A DNA stretch of 57,537 nucleotides from Pseudomonadales bacterium (GTDB taxonomy: Bacteria > Pseudomonadota > Gammaproteobacteria > Pseudomonadales > Azotimanducaceae), in NCBI GenBank assembly GCA_028281005.1, contig JANQKS010000071.1, positions 1 through 57,537 of the forward strand, in the 5' to 3' direction. Below, piece after piece: positions 9,872 to 16,310 of the stretch. Positions within the stretch are counted from its first letter, which is position 1. Each line of letters begins with the position of its first letter. A model generated the notes under the pieces. That model saw only the letters and a list, made by a program, of their open reading frames with translations. It was not told where the DNA came from and searched no databases. Made by a program: the position numbers and the translations under genes.

Positions 9872-10303
9872 ATGGCGCCGCAGCGAAAGATCTTAGCCGC
9901 CACGTTGTTGTCGGCAGCCTGCTGCACGATGGCGGCACAGGCCGCCACCTACCCCGCCTATGCCGAAGTGCTTGAGGCAAAAAAAATTGTTCAGCAGAAA
10001 CAGACCCGCACTCCGGTTAAACGCTGCACCTGGGAACAGCTACCCAGCCGCGTGCGTTACGAACACCGTTATGGCGAACGCCGTGTCATTGAACGGCGTG
10101 CCAAACGCTGCCGCACCAGCTACCAAAGCCGCACGGTTAACGAGGTGACCGGCTACGATGTCACGCTGCGTTACAACGGTGAAACCTTTACCCGACGTAC
10201 TTTGACCCATCCGGGTACGCGTATACCCATCACCGTTGAGGTTCAACCACACCATGAACACCCGGCGCCGAGATTCAGCACCCGTTCAGACAACCCGACC
10301 TAG
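9872..10303 (+). CDS. Small secreted protein, 17-kDa-antigen-like C-terminus (envelope cluster gene 1)
   Basis: 143 residues with a GGAG ribosome site before the ATG and a signal peptide ending near AAQA (about residue 25). The mature part starts YPAYAEVLEAKKIV, has a Cys-containing, Arg-rich middle, and ends with GYDVTLRYNGETFTRRTL followed by HPGTRIPITVEV. That C-terminal pattern (V-Y-Y-G then PG-R-I-P) recalls Rickettsia 17-kDa surface-antigen-like proteins, but the glycine zipper is absent. The protein encoded at 15951 shares the same architecture. It lies 52 bp before gene 2 with no terminator between. Function unknown. Confidence 0.75.
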   Translation: MAPQRKILAATLLSAACCTMAAQAATYPAYAEVLEAKKIVQQKQTRTPVKRCTWEQLPSRVRYEHRYGERRVIERRAKRCRTSYQSRTVNEVTGYDVTLRYNGETFTRRTLTHPGTRIPITVEVQPHHEHPAPRFSTRSDNPT

Positions 10304-10312
10304 GCTCTATTA

Positions 10313-10348
10313 CCACACTAAGGACCACACTAAGGACCACACCAAGGA
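10313..10348 (+). repeat. Three tandem 12-bp repeats supplying the ribosome-binding site
   Basis: Units CCACACTAAGGA at 10313 and 10325 and CCACACCAAGGA at 10337. Each ends in a Shine-Dalgarno-like AAGGA, and the last one, AAGGAGG, is the ribosome-binding site of the ATG at 10356. Tandem copies could act as standby ribosome sites or be prone to slippage. That is inference. Confidence 0.75.
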
Positions 10349-10355
10349 GGAAGCC

Positions 10356-11177
10356 ATGCCGTCACCCCACCCCATCGTTGCAGCTCTAGCCAGCTGTCTT
10401 ATCGCTGTTAGTTTCAGCAGCCACACGTTGGCCGCCGGACAAAGCGGCCCAGTTGTAAAACTGTTCCCCACTACCGTTCTCGAAGACATCCGCGAAACCA
10501 GCGCGGTAGCCGAAGAGCTGGAGAACAACCTGCAGGAGATCATTCACCGCCTGGACATGCAGCAACAGCTTTATCAAGAGAGCCTGTGTGAAGGCGCCGA
10601 CGCCGACCAAGGCTGCGCGCGTATGGCCAAACAGCTTGGCGCCACCTATCTGGAGATGCTCAACGCCATGGGTGAGCGACTGCCGGAAATGGAGCGTGCG
10701 GTCAACAACACACGCAACAGCTTGGAGAAGCGGCTGCGGCAGGAGCTGGGCCAGCGCACCACACCCACCACCTTGCAAAACCAGCTGCTGGGACAAACCG
10801 CAGCAGTGAGCGCCACCACCCGCCCCGCGCTGCGCGGACGCTCCGGGGTGCGTTTGTCAGACCGCTTCAAACAGTACTACGACCTGGTGGCCACCCACCG
10901 CAATGGACCCAGTAAGTCACTGGCCGTGGTGGCAGCAGACATTTATCTAGACATGGAAGAAGCCTCGCAATTGATAGCTGCCACCCAGCAGGAAATCAGT
11001 CGGGCAGCGCTCATGGAACAACTGAACCAGTCGTTTGGCTTAATCACGCCGGAAATGGCCGCGGTAGTTGGCGGCGTCAAAGAAATTCTGTTCGGCGAAG
11101 CAGGTGGTGAAACCCCAATTGCCGCACCCCCCTACGCCATTGGGCAGGACACCTTTGTCAGCCCGTTAGAGATGTAA
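10356..11177 (+). CDS. Secreted alpha-helical/coiled-coil protein (envelope cluster gene 2)
   Basis: 273 residues from the ATG at 10356, which has a strong AAGGAGG. An upstream in-frame extension overlaps gene 1 and lacks a signal. The signal peptide ends near SHTLAA (about 27). The mature protein is mostly helical: heptad-like runs such as VAEELENNLQEIIHRLDMQQ, two cysteines in CEGADADQGC likely forming a disulfide, then further amphipathic helices to about residue 235. I do not recognise a family. Position between two secreted components suggests a periplasmic structural or adaptor role. Confidence 0.72.
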   Translation: MPSPHPIVAALASCLIAVSFSSHTLAAGQSGPVVKLFPTTVLEDIRETSAVAEELENNLQEIIHRLDMQQQLYQESLCEGADADQGCARMAKQLGATYLEMLNAMGERLPEMERAVNNTRNSLEKRLRQELGQRTTPTTLQNQLLGQTAAVSATTRPALRGRSGVRLSDRFKQYYDLVATHRNGPSKSLAVVAADIYLDMEEASQLIAATQQEISRAALMEQLNQSFGLITPEMAAVVGGVKEILFGEAGGETPIAAPPYAIGQDTFVSPLEM

Positions 11178-11196
11178 ACAAACCTGGGAGATTGAT

Positions 11197-11733
11197 ATGA
11201 CTCGTTATGTATGTATTTTGCTGGCCGCCACCCTGGGCCTGGGTGCTTGTGCTACACAACAAAACACCGCGCACTGCAGCGCCCCACTCAACCGTGACTT
11301 GGATACCGCGATGATGGAGGTGGAACAACGTTTGGCTTCAGGCTGCGAATACCACTTTGACCGCTATTTTCAGCAACTGTTGAGCACCGCGGAAGACAAC
11401 CCCGATGCGGAGAATAAAAGCCGCTTTTCCGATCACCTGTTACGCGCCAACGAAATGGGGGTTATCAGCCAGCGGCAAGCCAAGGAACTCTACAACCGCT
11501 ACTTCAACGTGAAGTTTGTTTCGCTGACTGGTGATTACAACACCTGTGCGCAGACTTGTCCGGTGCGCTCTGAAGTGATGAACAACATGCAAAACGAGCT
11601 GCGCGACAAACAGGTTGGCTTGCTCAAAGCCAGCGCCGACAAGACCGGCTACTACCGGGCAGACCACCTTCTCAAAGAAGCCCAGTTGGTTCTGGAAGCC
11701 ACTTGCAGAGCGTGCAACGCCGGTGCGCAATAA
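11197..11733 (+). CDS. Outer-membrane-type lipoprotein with conserved cysteines (envelope cluster gene 3)
   Basis: 178 residues. The N-terminus MTRYVCILLAATLGLGACA carries a lipobox (L-G-A-C, Cys18) followed by Ala and Thr, not Asp, so outer-membrane sorting is expected. The mature part is helical with six more cysteines, including CAQTC and CRAC, suggesting disulfides or a metal site. Ribosome site GGGAG precedes the ATG. It is 19 bp downstream of gene 2, and the next gene starts inside its last codons. No known family recognised. A pilotin- or Pal-like anchor for the trans-envelope set is a reasonable guess. Confidence 0.72.
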   Translation: MTRYVCILLAATLGLGACATQQNTAHCSAPLNRDLDTAMMEVEQRLASGCEYHFDRYFQQLLSTAEDNPDAENKSRFSDHLLRANEMGVISQRQAKELYNRYFNVKFVSLTGDYNTCAQTCPVRSEVMNNMQNELRDKQVGLLKASADKTGYYRADHLLKEAQLVLEATCRACNAGAQ

Positions 11734-12403
11734 CTCACCACAACACGCACCCTCCGGCTGGGGTTTTGGCTGGGGGTTTGCCATCGGCGCTAGCGTATCT
11801 CTGGTGGCGCTGCTGCAAACTTCATCAGCCACTGCTACCGCCCCCGCAACCACGGACATCACCGAGTGGTTAAGCCTTAATCTGGGCCACTCCATTGGCT
11901 TGTTTGCCGTGGTTGCCGTGTTGTTTGCCATCAAGCTACACCGCTTAATGCGTTTATTAAATGTGAGCTTGCCAAGTGACCGTGCCGATCCGGTGCAACC
12001 CAACCGCGACATCGTCGCGTTGGATCAAATGTTGGACGTCTGGACCCAGGTGTTTATTGGCATAGGCGTAATCTGGACCGCGGTGGGTATGCGCAGCGCC
12101 TTGCAGACCGCTTTGGGCGACCCCGGCGCCGCCCTCACCGATGACGCCGATGCGGTCCTGCGGCGCCTGGTGGATGGCGGCATATTGTTGGCGCTCACCA
12201 CCACCATCGTCGGCGCGGTGGGCGGTTATCTGATGCGGGTCATCAAAACCGCCTGTGTGGGTGCGGCTCTGCAGGGGTATTTCGAAGCCCTAGACCGCCA
12301 GGAACTACGCGCCTTGGTGGAGGCAACCCGTCGCATAGAAGCCCATCTACAGCAAGTCCCCGACCATGCAAACATGGCGGCGGTCAGCGGTACATCCACA
12401 TGA
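11723..12403 (+). CDS. MotA/TolQ/ExbB-like proton-channel protein (envelope cluster gene 4)
   Basis: 226 residues from a GTG at 11723 that overlaps the lipoprotein stop. A longer reading from 11615 lies wholly inside gene 3 and is rejected. Membrane helices are near 14-34, 53-73, 108-127 and 150-172. The helix FIGIGVIWTAVGMRSAL lines up with the P-x-L-G-L-L-G-T-V-x-G-M helix of ExbB/TolQ/MotA. DGGILLALTTTIVGAVGGYL lines up with the Thr-rich channel helix (Thr159-161). The next gene encodes an ExbD-like partner and overlaps by 4 bp. Likely an inner-membrane stator using the proton motive force. Similarity is by motif only. Confidence 0.68.
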   Translation: MRNNSPQHAPSGWGFGWGFAIGASVSLVALLQTSSATATAPATTDITEWLSLNLGHSIGLFAVVAVLFAIKLHRLMRLLNVSLPSDRADPVQPNRDIVALDQMLDVWTQVFIGIGVIWTAVGMRSALQTALGDPGAALTDDADAVLRRLVDGGILLALTTTIVGAVGGYLMRVIKTACVGAALQGYFEALDRQELRALVEATRRIEAHLQQVPDHANMAAVSGTST

Positions 12404-13242
12404 GGTTTTCGCACCGGCACTACAGCGAAGACGATAGTCTGCAGGCTGACGTGATGCGTTTTATGGCCATTGTTGCGTTTTGCCTGATCGCCATCCTTGC
12501 CATGGTGCGGCAAACCGCACCGCCGGTGCAGCCACAAAGCCAAGCCGAGCCTGAGTCCTTAACATCCCCCGTCGTAGCGGAAATTGCGCCGCATACAGAA
12601 CTTGTGCAGGTCAGCGAAACTGTCCTCGAGCCGGACCCTTCCATCGAAGCAGAGCCAACACCAGTGGCGCCGGTGGAACCACAAACCGATTCAACACCAC
12701 CGGCACCGGACAGCTCTGTTGGGGTGATACCCGAGCCTGCGCCAACTGCGCTTGAAGACACCCCAACAGAGCTGTCCAACGCTTTGATCGCCGTTGACAC
12801 CCCTGCTGAGGTCACGCAACCCACGGCAACGCCAGCAGTCAACTCTGAGCAGGTTGAGCAGCAAGCCGCGAGCACAGCACAAACCGTTGAAGACGCCGGA
12901 CTGACCCTACGTTTTGCATCAGAACGGGATTTTCTGCGCCTGGTAAGCCGCGGCAAGGTGAATGTGTTTGCCTACGACAAAAACCAGTTTCTTTCCCTTG
13001 ATCGCAGCCATCAGTTCCACACCGCCACGCCGCCGCAACAGGTTTACGAACTGGACCCCAGCACCATACCGGCATCCATGCGGCGTGCGCTGCCGGATCG
13101 GGCACACGCCAAACAACTGACATGGGCGGTGGGTTTACCACGCAAAGTCCAGCAACAGATCCAACAACACATCGCCCGCGTTGACAGTGGTGAGTTACAC
13201 ATCAACCGCTATGAAGAGGTTCGTCATGTTCCGCGCGGTTAG
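12400..13242 (+). CDS. ExbD/TolR-like protein with long Pro/Glu/Thr periplasmic linker (envelope cluster gene 5)
   Basis: 280 residues. A short basic cytoplasmic tail leads to one membrane helix, about 19-36. Asp17 sits in an ADVM sequence just before the helix, the position and context of the essential Asp in ExbD/TolR/MotB (DVM-L-V-L-L). Residues about 40-160 are a low-complexity linker rich in P, E, V, T and Q, long enough to span the periplasm as in TonB. A folded C-terminal domain follows (about 165-280, starting LTLRFASERDFLRLVSRG). ATGA overlap with the channel gene supports a complex. The C-terminal domain is not recognised. Confidence 0.66.
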   Translation: MRFSHRHYSEDDSLQADVMRFMAIVAFCLIAILAMVRQTAPPVQPQSQAEPESLTSPVVAEIAPHTELVQVSETVLEPDPSIEAEPTPVAPVEPQTDSTPPAPDSSVGVIPEPAPTALEDTPTELSNALIAVDTPAEVTQPTATPAVNSEQVEQQAASTAQTVEDAGLTLRFASERDFLRLVSRGKVNVFAYDKNQFLSLDRSHQFHTATPPQQVYELDPSTIPASMRRALPDRAHAKQLTWAVGLPRKVQQQIQQHIARVDSGELHINRYEEVRHVPRG

Positions 13243-14560
13243 CGCCCTGCTGTTATTCATATGCTGCGCCCAAAGCTGGGCGGAACGCGCCCTTTTGAGC
13301 GGCGAACTCGGAGGATGGTTACAACAAAGCGCCATCCCAGAGTTGACGGAAACACTGGCACAACACCCGAAGTTCAGCGGCCAGCCGCTGCGTATCGCGG
13401 CCGTCAATGGCGCCCAAGCCAGCAGCCAGAGTAGCGCTTTGGCAGATGCCATTAGCCAACAACTCACACATGCGATCTTACGCAAGGGTAAGAACGACGT
13501 CGCCAACCAACAAGACCCGGCAATCTGCAACAAGGTACCAAGGCCCGTTTACTATCTCGTTGGCATCCAAATTGAGCCGCTTAGCAGCAGCAACCATCGG
13601 GTTAGCCTTGCGGTATTAGATTTAGAGAGCGGCATGTGGGTGAGTGGGATCAGCCTGACCTGGCAGGGTCGCTTACTGAACAGCGAACGCCGCGCCTTGG
13701 CGACACTGGTACAGAACGCGCCAGTAGGGTCGCTTGAAAACCCGCTGCGCTTAAGCGACACCGCGGCGCTGGCTGAAGGTTTGTACAAACAACTGCAATG
13801 CCGTTTGCCGCGCTCCCTAGAGGGCACACTTACAACCACGTCCGCCAACACCGCGGACGCAACACAAGACAGCCCTGATTTACAACTGGTGATGTACACA
13901 CTACACGACAAACTGTCGTTGGCTGCACACGCCATGAGCCGCGATGAAGAAGACGCTACTTGGACCTTGCAACCGGAGCTACAGCAGGTCACCACGAGCT
14001 TACATCTACTTACGCTGGATTTGCGCGAAAACTCTAGCGCTACCAACCGCCAACGTCTCGCTAGCGTCTATGTCAGCGGTCCGGCGGCGCAGGTAGTCGC
14101 ACCGCACCCAGCAACACCCCTGTATCCCGCGGTCGCCTTGCTCAGCGAGTTATTGGTGCCGCGCCAGTCTCGCCGCTGCAACGACACCGAGTGCGCGGAA
14201 ATTTCATTTGCACTAAACCAAGATGCTTACCTGCTGGTCTTCCGTACCCACCGCGGCAGCGTCACACCGCTCAACTGCCGTTCAGCGGCAGAACTAAGGT
14301 CTGCCGGAGAGCAGTTCTACCGCTTACAAGCCGCACAGCAACAGCGTGTGGGCTTCTTTGTCATCGCCAGTCGCGACCGCCAAGCCATACGGCGCTTGCA
14401 ACAACAGTTCCGTGACGCGCCAGGCGCTTGCGGACAAGCCATTAACGGCGACTCGCGGTGGCTACAACGCACCATTAACTTGTTACGAGCACAGCAAACC
14501 GCCTATGAATGGCGAGCTGTGCACTTCGTCAATACGCCACAAGGTCCCCAGTTGTTGTAG
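13226..14560 (+). CDS. Secreted protein with DUF4384-like C-terminal domain (envelope cluster gene 6)
   Basis: 444 residues from the ATG at 13226, preceded by GAAGAGG and overlapping the end of gene 5. A signal peptide ends near AQSWA (about 20). Residues about 25-160 resemble the nucleotide-binding-like fold of CsgG/FlgO/LpoB envelope proteins (GQPLRIAAVNGAQA, a helix, then YYLVGIQIEPL and HRVSLAVLDLESGMWVSG). Residues about 315-405 resemble DUF4384: EISFALNQDAYLLVFRTHRG, VTPLNC, then a helix. Both assignments are by eye and need profile searches. Probably a periplasmic or outer-membrane-associated component. Confidence 0.6.
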   Translation: MFRAVSALLLFICCAQSWAERALLSGELGGWLQQSAIPELTETLAQHPKFSGQPLRIAAVNGAQASSQSSALADAISQQLTHAILRKGKNDVANQQDPAICNKVPRPVYYLVGIQIEPLSSSNHRVSLAVLDLESGMWVSGISLTWQGRLLNSERRALATLVQNAPVGSLENPLRLSDTAALAEGLYKQLQCRLPRSLEGTLTTTSANTADATQDSPDLQLVMYTLHDKLSLAAHAMSRDEEDATWTLQPELQQVTTSLHLLTLDLRENSSATNRQRLASVYVSGPAAQVVAPHPATPLYPAVALLSELLVPRQSRRCNDTECAEISFALNQDAYLLVFRTHRGSVTPLNCRSAAELRSAGEQFYRLQAAQQQRVGFFVIASRDRQAIRRLQQQFRDAPGACGQAINGDSRWLQRTINLLRAQQTAYEWRAVHFVNTPQGPQLL

Positions 14561-14590
14561 GGACCATGATGAGCAAATGAGGAGACCGCT

Positions 14591-15241
14591 ATGCGTTTTA
14601 TATTCGGACTGATTGCTGGCGCTCTAACCACCTTGGTGGTGGCCACGGCGCTGGATGCGCCTACGGAAGAGGTTCTGCAGCGTGCCGATGAGATTGCCGA
14701 CGAAAGTTGGCAGGCATTGCGTGAACAGTTCAGTACCCCAACATCCTCACCGTCATTCTCTAAGACGGATACAGAGATAGGCGCCCAAACTGAAATGTCG
14801 CTCGATGCGGCTAGATCTTTGTATCAACCCCCGAATTCGCAGGAGCCCCCAATCGAGCAAATACCTGCTGACCATGAACACATAACACCTCCCGAAGGTG
14901 ATCAACCCGTGAATCTCCCGATCACAGATCTTGCTGCGGTGGACACTTGGGTTGCACCCTCCACGCCGGAACTCACCGACGCGGTGAACAAACCGTCTGT
15001 CGCGCTGAACGTGGAAGCCGTTGCCGCCAGTCAGGCCGGTGAAGCGGTGGTGTGGTCACCCTTTCACAGCGAAGCCTCCGCCACTGGATTCGCCAACCGG
15101 CTGAGCCGCCAGTTAGCGCACCCGTTTGAAGTGCGCAAGCAAGGTCCTGCAAATTACATCGTTGTGTATAGCTTCGCCGATGAAAACCAGCGCCTTGCTC
15201 TGCAGCGGGAAATATCAAAAGTCACCGGGGTATCTTCATGA
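14591..15241 (+). CDS. Membrane-anchored SPOR-like protein (envelope cluster gene 7)
   Basis: 216 residues; GAGGAG lies just upstream of the ATG. An N-terminal hydrophobic segment (about 3-20, GLIAGALTTLVVATAL) acts as anchor or signal. A long acidic, Pro-rich linker (about 45-145) follows. The C-terminal 65 residues, EAVVWSPFHSEASATGFANR through NYIVVYSFADENQR and a last helix, match the beta-alpha-beta pattern of SPOR peptidoglycan-binding domains. The stop overlaps the transglycosylase start (ATGA). SPOR domains bind glycan strands stripped of stem peptides, which fits the next enzyme. Confidence 0.66.
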   Translation: MRFIFGLIAGALTTLVVATALDAPTEEVLQRADEIADESWQALREQFSTPTSSPSFSKTDTEIGAQTEMSLDAARSLYQPPNSQEPPIEQIPADHEHITPPEGDQPVNLPITDLAAVDTWVAPSTPELTDAVNKPSVALNVEAVAASQAGEAVVWSPFHSEASATGFANRLSRQLAHPFEVRKQGPANYIVVYSFADENQRLALQREISKVTGVSS

Positions 15242-15954
15242 TGAAACACGGACCGTACGTACTCTTGTTTGCCTTGAGTGTCGCGCTGGCCTTACCGGCC
15301 TGGGCCTCATCGCCTCAACGCTACCCCTATCAAAGCTGCTTTGAAGTGGCTGCACAAATGCACCACGTACCGCTGGACCTGCTACTGGCGGTGGCGGCTA
15401 CGGAAAGCAACTGGGATGCGGACGCCCGCTCCCATGCCAACGCCCACGGCATCATGCAGATTCAGTGGCCGGGCACCGCCAAGCACCTAGGCGTGAAACG
15501 TGTGGCGGAATTGTACAATCCCTGCCTTAACATTTCCCTGGGCGCACAATACTTAAATGAATTGCTGGTCGATTTCGGCGGTTCCGACGTACATGCCTTG
15601 GCCGCCTACAACTACGGACCGACACGCATACAGTCCCACCTGGAAGCGGACGAACCTCTCCCTCAGGGCGCACAACAATACGCCGAACGGGTGCAACAGC
15701 ATCAACGCCGCATCAACGCGGGCCTGATCCCCAAGGCCTTAAAACCACACAGTCAGCGCACGCTGGTGACCTTCAATTCGCGCAGCCGGGCCACGCGCCT
15801 ATCAAACAAACTCGCGCGGATGCTGGACGGCGCCACGGTGCGCGTTAACCAACTGCAACGTTCACCGCGTTATGCAGTGGTACTAGAAGTGGGTAAGGCA
15901 GGGTTAACCAGCAACGACCATGTCACCCTGAATAATATGGGTTGGTCGCTATGA
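15238..15954 (+). CDS. Lytic transglycosylase (SLT domain) with C-terminal SPOR-like domain (envelope cluster gene 8)
   Basis: 238 residues with a signal peptide ending at AWAS (about 24). The SLT fold is clear: catalytic Glu56 in ATESNWD, GIMQIQWPGTAKHLG, LGAQYLNELL and AAYNYGP. It cleaves the glycan between MurNAc and GlcNAc, making 1,6-anhydro ends in the periplasm. Residues about 178-235 (LVTFNSRSRATRLSNKLARM, then YAVVLEVG) look like a second SPOR-like domain, parallel to gene 7. Specialised transglycosylases of this size are common in trans-envelope machines, where they open the wall locally. ATG at 15238 or 15241. Confidence 0.86.
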   Translation: MMKHGPYVLLFALSVALALPAWASSPQRYPYQSCFEVAAQMHHVPLDLLLAVAATESNWDADARSHANAHGIMQIQWPGTAKHLGVKRVAELYNPCLNISLGAQYLNELLVDFGGSDVHALAAYNYGPTRIQSHLEADEPLPQGAQQYAERVQQHQRRINAGLIPKALKPHSQRTLVTFNSRSRATRLSNKLARMLDGATVRVNQLQRSPRYAVVLEVGKAGLTSNDHVTLNNMGWSL

Positions 15955-16310
15955 GAACGCTGTGGTTACTTGGCTTAGGGGCCGCGTTGGGCGCCGCAGC
16001 AGCGCCTTACGCAGATGCGCAAACACACCGCTTTCTGGCCGAGCGTACGGTCTGGGCTAAGGTGACCCATGTCGAGCCCATCAGCACCGAGCGTCACATC
16101 GCGCCAGCACTGGATTGCGCCGGACCCAGACCCCCGCAAGCAAGCCTCGAAACCCTGCTGCGATGGGACCTCGACCCAGCCTGCCGTGATAGAACCGAAG
16201 CACATGTGCACGGTTATCGGGTCAGCTACACCTGGGACGGACGCCACTACAGCATAGAAATGCAGGATCATCCGGGGCCGCGCATCCCCTTACGCCTGAG
16301 AATCCGCTAA
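15951..16310 (+). CDS. Small secreted protein, paralogue of the protein at 9872 (envelope cluster gene 9)
   Basis: 119 residues from the ATG at 15951, which overlaps the transglycosylase stop (ATGA). An upstream TTG at 15942 is less likely. Signal peptide ends near YADA (about 25). Two cysteines (LDCAGP and DPACRD) are followed by the same ending as the 9872 protein: HGYRVSYTWDGRHYSIEM, then HPGPRIPLRLRI. The two small proteins thus bracket the cluster. Function unknown; a surface or periplasmic accessory is likely. Confidence 0.72.
   Translation: MRTLWLLGLGAALGAAAAPYADAQTHRFLAERTVWAKVTHVEPISTERHIAPALDCAGPRPPQASLETLLRWDLDPACRDRTEAHVHGYRVSYTWDGRHYSIEMQDHPGPRIPLRLRIR

Follow-up and report, generated by a model that had tools for sequence, protein, structure and literature searches.

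A conserved nine-gene envelope cluster of a Pseudomonadales bacterium groups a remote ExbB-like candidate with a lytic transglycosylase and SPOR-like tails

Introduction

Proton-driven machines known to span the bacterial envelope are few, and it is an open question how such machines work across the peptidoglycan. Nine genes at positions 9872 to 16310 of a contig from a Pseudomonadales bacterium of the family Azotimanducaceae (GenBank assembly GCA_028281005.1, 5.1 Mb in 135 contigs) raise the question of whether they encode another such machine. The window analysed here is that whole contig (JANQKS010000071.1, our G000:C98; 57,537 nucleotides). The original prediction, made from the letters of the window, had read the genes as a proton-driven envelope machine with an ExbB/ExbD-like motor pair, SPOR modules and a transglycosylase. 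We consider it reasonably probable that the cluster encodes a so far undescribed machine that spans the envelope, runs on the proton gradient and comes with dedicated wall remodelling: the envelope-directed gene set, the transglycosylase, the SPOR-like tails and the remote motor resemblance of gene 4 agree with that prediction, whereas its ExbD relation for gene 5 and its DUF4384/CsgG assignment for gene 6 did not stand.

Results

A nine-gene cluster conserved as a unit

Nine open reading frames (ORFs), all on the forward strand and with starts of our choosing, fill the cluster, in agreement with the original prediction:

9872..10303, + strand, gene 1: small secreted protein whose C-terminal domain is common to gene 9; without glycine zipper
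10356..11177, + strand, gene 2: secreted, probably helix-rich protein (helix content judged by eye)
11197..11733, + strand, gene 3: lipoprotein (lipobox Cys18, by eye)
11723..12403, + strand, gene 4: motor A-subunit candidate, remote MotA/TolQ/ExbB relative (GTG start; from profile, fold and invariant Thr)
12400..13242, + strand, gene 5: motor B-subunit/force-transducer candidate (one transmembrane helix, Asp17, linker, C-terminal domain)
13211..14560, + strand, gene 6: secreted protein with a faintly DUF4384-like tail (five invariant columns)
14591..15241, + strand, gene 7: membrane-anchored protein with a SPOR-like C-terminal domain (about 150-216; profile-profile comparison)
15238..15954, + strand, gene 8: SLT-family lytic transglycosylase (PF01464) with a SPOR-like tail (about 172-238; profile-profile comparison)
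15951..16310, + strand, gene 9: second small secreted protein, related to gene 1; outside the invariant core

Most genes had been said to overlap by 4-17 bp; five of the eight junctions do overlap, but by 11, 4, 32, 4 and 4 bp, and the other three have gaps of 52, 19 and 30 bp. All nine products, and not all but one as first proposed, look exported or membrane-bound (genes 4 and 5 from models, the rest from inspection of their N-termini). Promoter and terminator scans stayed near shuffled expectation, and single-sequence Pfam and NCBIfam searches of the nine proteins gave little beyond SLT; most of the proteins fall into no named family.

Gene order was compared across 65 loci, reduced to 52 by removal of 13 recognised duplicates and all containing gene 2. 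A search of named genome contigs gave 44 loci, under titles that are all gammaproteobacterial or unspecific proteobacterial. In 24 of the 25 contigs of a type-A test set, defined by at least 5.2 kb after gene 2 (our threshold) and including the window, genes 3-4-5-6-7-8 follow gene 2 in the window order; the exception is L113, which has no gene 8. Five loci (L023 and L100-L103), with Seongchinamella sediminis U0301 and Exilibacterium tricleocarpae R142 among the carriers, have a permuted order, 6-(7)-8-2-3-4-5, in which the gene 7 profile found nothing in L102, L103 and L023 (E 6e-5 in L023 once filters were off) and gene 6 was not found in L023. The contigs of the remaining 22 of the 52 loci were too short for the comparison, and the short contig L091 gave only a stray reverse-strand SLT match. 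Because homologues keep their order in other genomes, the cluster is more than a chance arrangement.

Gene 4 occurs in 7 of 58 relatives. Gene 2 was found in 31 of the family's 206 genomes, in 6 of 390 sampled from the order and in 6 of 369 sampled from the gammaproteobacterial class; every count takes in the window genome. The class-sample genomes with gene 4 coincide exactly with the six that carry gene 2. A phylum sample of 398 genomes gave two with gene 2, namely the window genome and one of the same class whose 45-residue match (E 8.5e-4) we took as chance. In six loci fetched from the other gene 4-bearing relatives, the genes found adjoin gene 4 in unchanged order; three of the six have both gene 1 and gene 9, one contig being too short to judge this. 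With starts picked by script, overlap is seen at the gene 7/gene 8 junction in 17 of 24 contigs and at the gene 5/gene 6 junction in 20 of 25. The cluster of nine genes is confirmed and has been kept as one unit: the genes stay together in other genomes, as the original prediction had to assume, and the shared order and the joint occurrence of genes 2 and 4 support a co-inherited envelope gene set.

One genome (G763) carries two diverged copies of the cluster (G763:C144 and G763:C82; L098 and L109). Among the same-genus genomes G000-G036, presence goes with genome size: gene 4 is found in six of the seven of at least 4.4 Mb and in none of the 30 smaller ones (sizes are rounded, and several of the small ones are incomplete).

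Gene 4 as a remote relative of motor A-subunits

When the gene 4 profile was compared by hhalign with an ExbB profile made from 48 ExbB-type ORFs of five of the genomes, the score of 33.9 (E 5e-4) exceeded those of all 40 locally shuffled controls (maximum 23.8), of reversed ExbB (13.1) and of reversed gene 4 (12.5). PF01618 was matched by 2 of 39 gene 4 members at E ≤ 0.1, with a best E of 6e-4. A structural model from 39 sequences (pLDDT 83.5) has helices at residues 13-36, 44-54, 57-82, 93-131 and 142-211, and Thr119, Thr160 and Thr161, invariant in 39 of 39 members, align onto the transmembrane signatures of ExbB in the last two transmembrane helices. For the MotA/TolQ/ExbB superfamily, essential threonines have been described as forming a ring around the Asp (PMC12204202), and the small cytoplasmic part of gene 4 brings to mind the condensed-domain group among generic ion transporters (PMC12505986). 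With this model as Foldseek query, the second-ranked match was a chain of the ExbB pentamer (6ye4; probability 0.96, E 0.21, TM-score 0.40), and the best 50 rows held 18 weak matches to ExbB (9), flagellar stator (6) and TolQRA (3) chains, with BAR, Smac and designed helical proteins among the others. Judged from profiles and models, gene 4 is likely a remote MotA/TolQ/ExbB relative and the motor reading likely; the ExbB/TolQ/MotA type of the original prediction is thus upheld by the profile score, the threonines and the weak fold matches, but as a distant relationship.

Gene 5 as a candidate B-subunit and force transducer

In its model, gene 5 has a single transmembrane helix (residues 10-37), near the start of which Asp17 is invariant in 40 of 40 members. 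The window protein continues with a linker of 129 residues, of low model confidence and 17% Pro, and a confidently modelled C-terminal domain (167-277). Across the 40 members the linkers measure 22-210 residues (median 110), with at least 10% Pro in 30 and a helical linker in six (by our cut-offs). The topology, the invariant Asp and the place beside gene 4 make a part in a motor plausible.

Gene 5 may work like ExbD, and also like the predicted transpore-helix transducers with vWA domains, in which structure prediction places Asp-bearing helices and vWA domains in one protein, encoded next to tolQ-like genes where tolR is absent (PMC12204202). As there, a single protein that has a conserved Asp and lacks a tolR partner would be B-subunit and force transducer at once; unlike there, the cluster has one such gene and not pairs, and the best 50 of 149 Foldseek rows for gene 5 include no vWA entry, nor any ExbD/TolR or OmpA-like one.

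The claim that gene 5 is related to ExbD by sequence or fold was not borne out. The window protein has no Pfam match at E 0.1, and PF02472 and PF13677 are absent among the best 25 of 59 families listed for gene 5. Homology to ExbD or MotB was considered and found unsupported, profile scores being no better than shuffles and the fold search giving no match, and gene 5 is therefore not filed here as ExbD; since an ExbD-MotB control itself reached only 29%, the profile test has little power.

Weighing the motor

A number of results speak against a motor-driven machine. Window gene 4 has no Pfam match at all, PF01618 included, and none of ten divergent members scanned to E 1 matched that family. 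The hhalign probability for gene 4 and ExbB is just 31.5%, falling to 12.0% (score 28.0) when the 8-sequence seed set is used alone, and two MotA sequences give 1.0% with gene 4 whereas they give 95.1% with ExbB. No ExbB chain was retrieved by a gene 4 profile search of PDB sequences, and in the Foldseek search no row reached E ≤ 0.001 and a BAR domain ranked first. For gene 5, hhalign scores were 11.0 with ExbD (controls reach 17.0) and 8.5 with MotB (controls reach 15.8), and Foldseek on the PDB, with the linker included in the query, gave no credible match (best E 0.75). One locus, L113 (G940:C2:1345000-1364500), is otherwise complete but has no gene 8 between genes 7 and 9.

Such results could mean that gene 4 is an unrelated four-helix membrane protein and that the cluster encodes a passive wall-associated complex without any motor, a view favoured by the missing Pfam match of gene 4, the missing ExbD/MotB homology of gene 5 and Foldseek TM-scores that do not exceed 0.40 for any ExbB, stator or TolQ chain. 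We hold it to be decidedly improbable, given that the gene 4-ExbB score lies beyond every shuffled and reversed control, that the invariant threonines fall in aligned helices and that ExbB, stator and TolQ chains make up 18 of the best 50 PDB rows. Of the predicted motor pair, gene 4 shows its expected kinship weakly and gene 5 fails to show it by profile.

A MotA-like A-subunit away from flagella is also found in Zorya, and gene 4 matched the ZorA (MotA/ExbB/TolQ) model weakly (E 0.053), just as gene 3 matched the candidate defence model PDC-M44B (E 0.014). Both would suit a Zorya-type phage defence in which a MotA-like channel senses phage at the envelope, but none of the nine proteins matched ZorB or a Zorya effector at E ≤ 0.1, and the set has transglycosylase and SPOR-like domains instead. 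We rejected Zorya membership on this gene content, and a defence system of that type seems very improbable indeed.

A transglycosylase and two SPOR-like tails

Gene 8 is, from its sequence, an SLT lytic transglycosylase, as the original prediction had proposed: PF01464 scores 90.7 bits against a cut-off of 21.3, and SLT was found in 33 of 33 members. Glu56-Ser57, Tyr124-Asn125 and Gly127-Pro128 are invariant in these 33 and sit where the SLT catalytic site typically lies, Glu56 being presumably catalytic by analogy. A profile search with gene 8 gave Slt70 at E 1.1e-21 and the EscI-EtgA fusion at E 2.4e-6, and an NCBIfam scan gave the type III secretion system (T3SS) model IagB at E 3e-9, below that model's cut-off.

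SPOR domains bind stripped glycan. In profile-profile comparison with SPOR, the gene 7 tail reached 80.8% (40 shuffles, maximum 17.7%; reversed 0.1%) and the gene 8 tail 86.4% (40 shuffles, maximum 17.3%; reversed 4.3%), and the two tails gave 96.5% with each other, here without a shuffled control. These scores support the SPOR-like domains that had been proposed for both proteins. PF05036 was found at E ≤ 0.05 in 2 of 32 gene 7 members (best 0.018), its cut-off not being reached, and is not among the eight families matched by gene 8 members. RlpA is an example of a lytic transglycosylase that bears a SPOR domain; gene 8 likewise joins a transglycosylase to a SPOR-type module, but its catalytic domain is SLT (PF01464), its tail is divergent and it lies inside a candidate motor cluster.

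In Seongchinamella sediminis, one ORF (L022:7126-8085, in the same genome as L102:7908-8867) apparently joins a gene 7-like N-terminal anchor to the gene 8 transglycosylase, with SLT confirmed. A further ORF with an SLT domain lies after the cluster at L076:10359-10877.

Dedicated transglycosylases accompany secretion and surface-assembly machines, and genes 4 and 5 might power the passage of an exported protein or polymer across an outer-membrane component, with gene 8 opening the wall for it. The IagB and EscI-EtgA matches would fit such an apparatus; however, the latter is far weaker than Slt70, Pfam and NCBIfam recognised no porin, usher, ATPase or pilin in the cluster (genes 2, 3 and 6 being unplaced), and, two-component genes aside, no group of flanking genes recurs in more than five of these 52 loci. 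We regard a secretion or surface-assembly role as unlikely.

Comparison with Tol-Pal and ExbB-ExbD-TonB

The cluster resembles Tol-Pal in having an inner-membrane ring candidate, an Asp-bearing single-span partner, a lipoprotein and a link to the wall, and gene 5 linkers are both Pro-rich and helical, two kinds that have both been described for TolA (PMC12204202). It differs in that none of the nine proteins matched TolA, TolB or Pal/OmpA in Pfam or NCBIfam and in bringing its own transglycosylase and two SPOR-like tails; Tol-Pal membership was rejected on this gene content (no TolA, TolB or Pal). As for ExbB-ExbD-TonB, gene 4 resembles ExbB in profile and weakly in fold, and the Asp of gene 5 lies at the start of its only transmembrane helix, but gene 5 has a long linker and, by profile or fold search, no ExbD-type domain, and no separate TonB was recognised in the cluster. 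Ordinary PF01618 (12 matches) and PF02472 (8) proteins are encoded elsewhere in the window genome.

Neighbouring two-component genes

The flanks of the cluster in the window are ordinary, with genes for a universal stress protein and an AbgT-type transporter, then for a wax-ester synthase, a GNAT protein and a thioesterase. In four loci, a histidine kinase and a regulator adjoin the cluster (L092:9401-11576, L093:15222-17272, L102:4339-6445 and L023:3735-6054); in permuted loci they lie upstream of it, in type-A loci downstream and on the opposite strand. The kinases of L022 (which shares its genome with L102), L023 and L093 were scanned, and all three had PhoQ as their best NCBIfam match, at scores below cut-off. 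The kinases of L092 and L093 share 63% identity. A glycine-zipper relative of gene 1 lies beside the kinase and regulator in L092, L093 and L102 (by eye in L093), and regulator-like ORFs alone follow the cluster in L100 and L101. With looser clustering, kinase- or regulator-like ORFs occur somewhere in 9 of the 52 loci.

These neighbours could point to a sensor or checkpoint, in which genes 4 and 5 form a gated channel that reports the state of the wall or outer membrane and acts upstream of, or under, a PhoPQ-like system. The adjacent PhoQ-like kinases, the zipper proteins and the lone regulators agree with it, but the kinases score below the PhoQ cut-off and kinase and regulator are adjacent in only four loci, the window not among them, for which reason a two-component system was rejected as a constant part of the cluster. 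We find a sensor quite unlikely; that the cluster may be linked to envelope stress is something we infer.

The remaining proteins

Genes 2 and 3 encode the most conserved proteins: in the first sequence set, identity to the window protein is 66-81% for gene 2 and 57-72% for gene 3. For neither was a known family found in Pfam or NCBIfam or a credible relative in a PDB profile search. Beyond its lipobox Cys18, gene 3 has six cysteines, all invariant across the first seven sequences. Profiles of genes 5 and 6, searched against PDB sequences, likewise gave no credible relative.

For gene 6, W151, G153, C356, C407 and W434 are invariant in 36 members. The DUF4384/CsgG relation first proposed for it was not demonstrated: DUF4384 appeared in 1 of 36 members (E 0.0052), the score against a DUF4384 profile (16.3; one template) equals the best of 60 shuffles (16.3), and the Pfam scan, the only check made for CsgG, gave no match. 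A single-sequence gene 6 search of the genome contigs found no relative. The FlgO model was considered and dropped, with weak matches only, at other places, in 3 of 58 relatives.

Genes 1 and 9 share a domain, and gene 1 matched NCBIfam PRK11280 at E 4.8e-7, below cut-off. Rick_17kDa, a glycine-zipper family, was matched at E ≤ 1e-3 by 8 of 10 gene 1/gene 9-type proteins from other loci, the two others being copies downstream of the cluster. The zipper is missing in gene 1 of the window (9872-10303) and of the same-genus loci L060:8523-8912 and L061:8529-8906, and is present in the gene at the same position in L069:8294-8851 (same genus), L080:8327-8956, L066:5423-5947, L113:9216-9830 and L082:407-994.

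Discussion

The machine that we favour would have gene 4 as an inner-membrane ring of MotA/TolQ/ExbB type, in which gene 5 would sit by one helix with a proton-carrying Asp, while its linker would carry the folded domain across the periplasm. With its Asp-bearing helix in the ring and a folded domain on a long linker, gene 5 would combine the roles of ExbD/TolR and of TonB/TolA. Gene 2, the lipoprotein of gene 3 and gene 6 may be the periplasmic and outer-membrane parts that gene 5 would push or pull; gene 8 would be the cutter of glycan strands, its work held at stripped glycan by its own SPOR-like tail and that of gene 7. Our guess at the task is the linking or remodelling of outer membrane and wall, comparable to Tol-Pal and perhaps under envelope-stress control.

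Most likely, the gene set is a further form of the proton-driven trans-envelope motors already known. A more tentative proposal, whose chances we put somewhat short of even, is a new class of proton-driven envelope machine, separate from Tol, Ton, Mot, Gld/Agl and Zorya. Its B-subunit would span the periplasm and act as transducer itself, and a wall-cutting enzyme of the machine's own, with two SPOR-type clamps, would open the peptidoglycan at the site of action. Neither "transglycosylase" nor "SPOR" appears in the main text of the paper on the transpore-helix transducers (PMC12204202), and a search of full-text open-licence literature for combinations of the cluster's parts found no description of it among the papers listed.

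Since the cluster occurs in named strains, genetics may be possible. With a candidate ExbB-like ring, a glycan-cutting enzyme and SPOR-type tails in one conserved cluster, the way in which force is coupled to wall opening could be tested directly.

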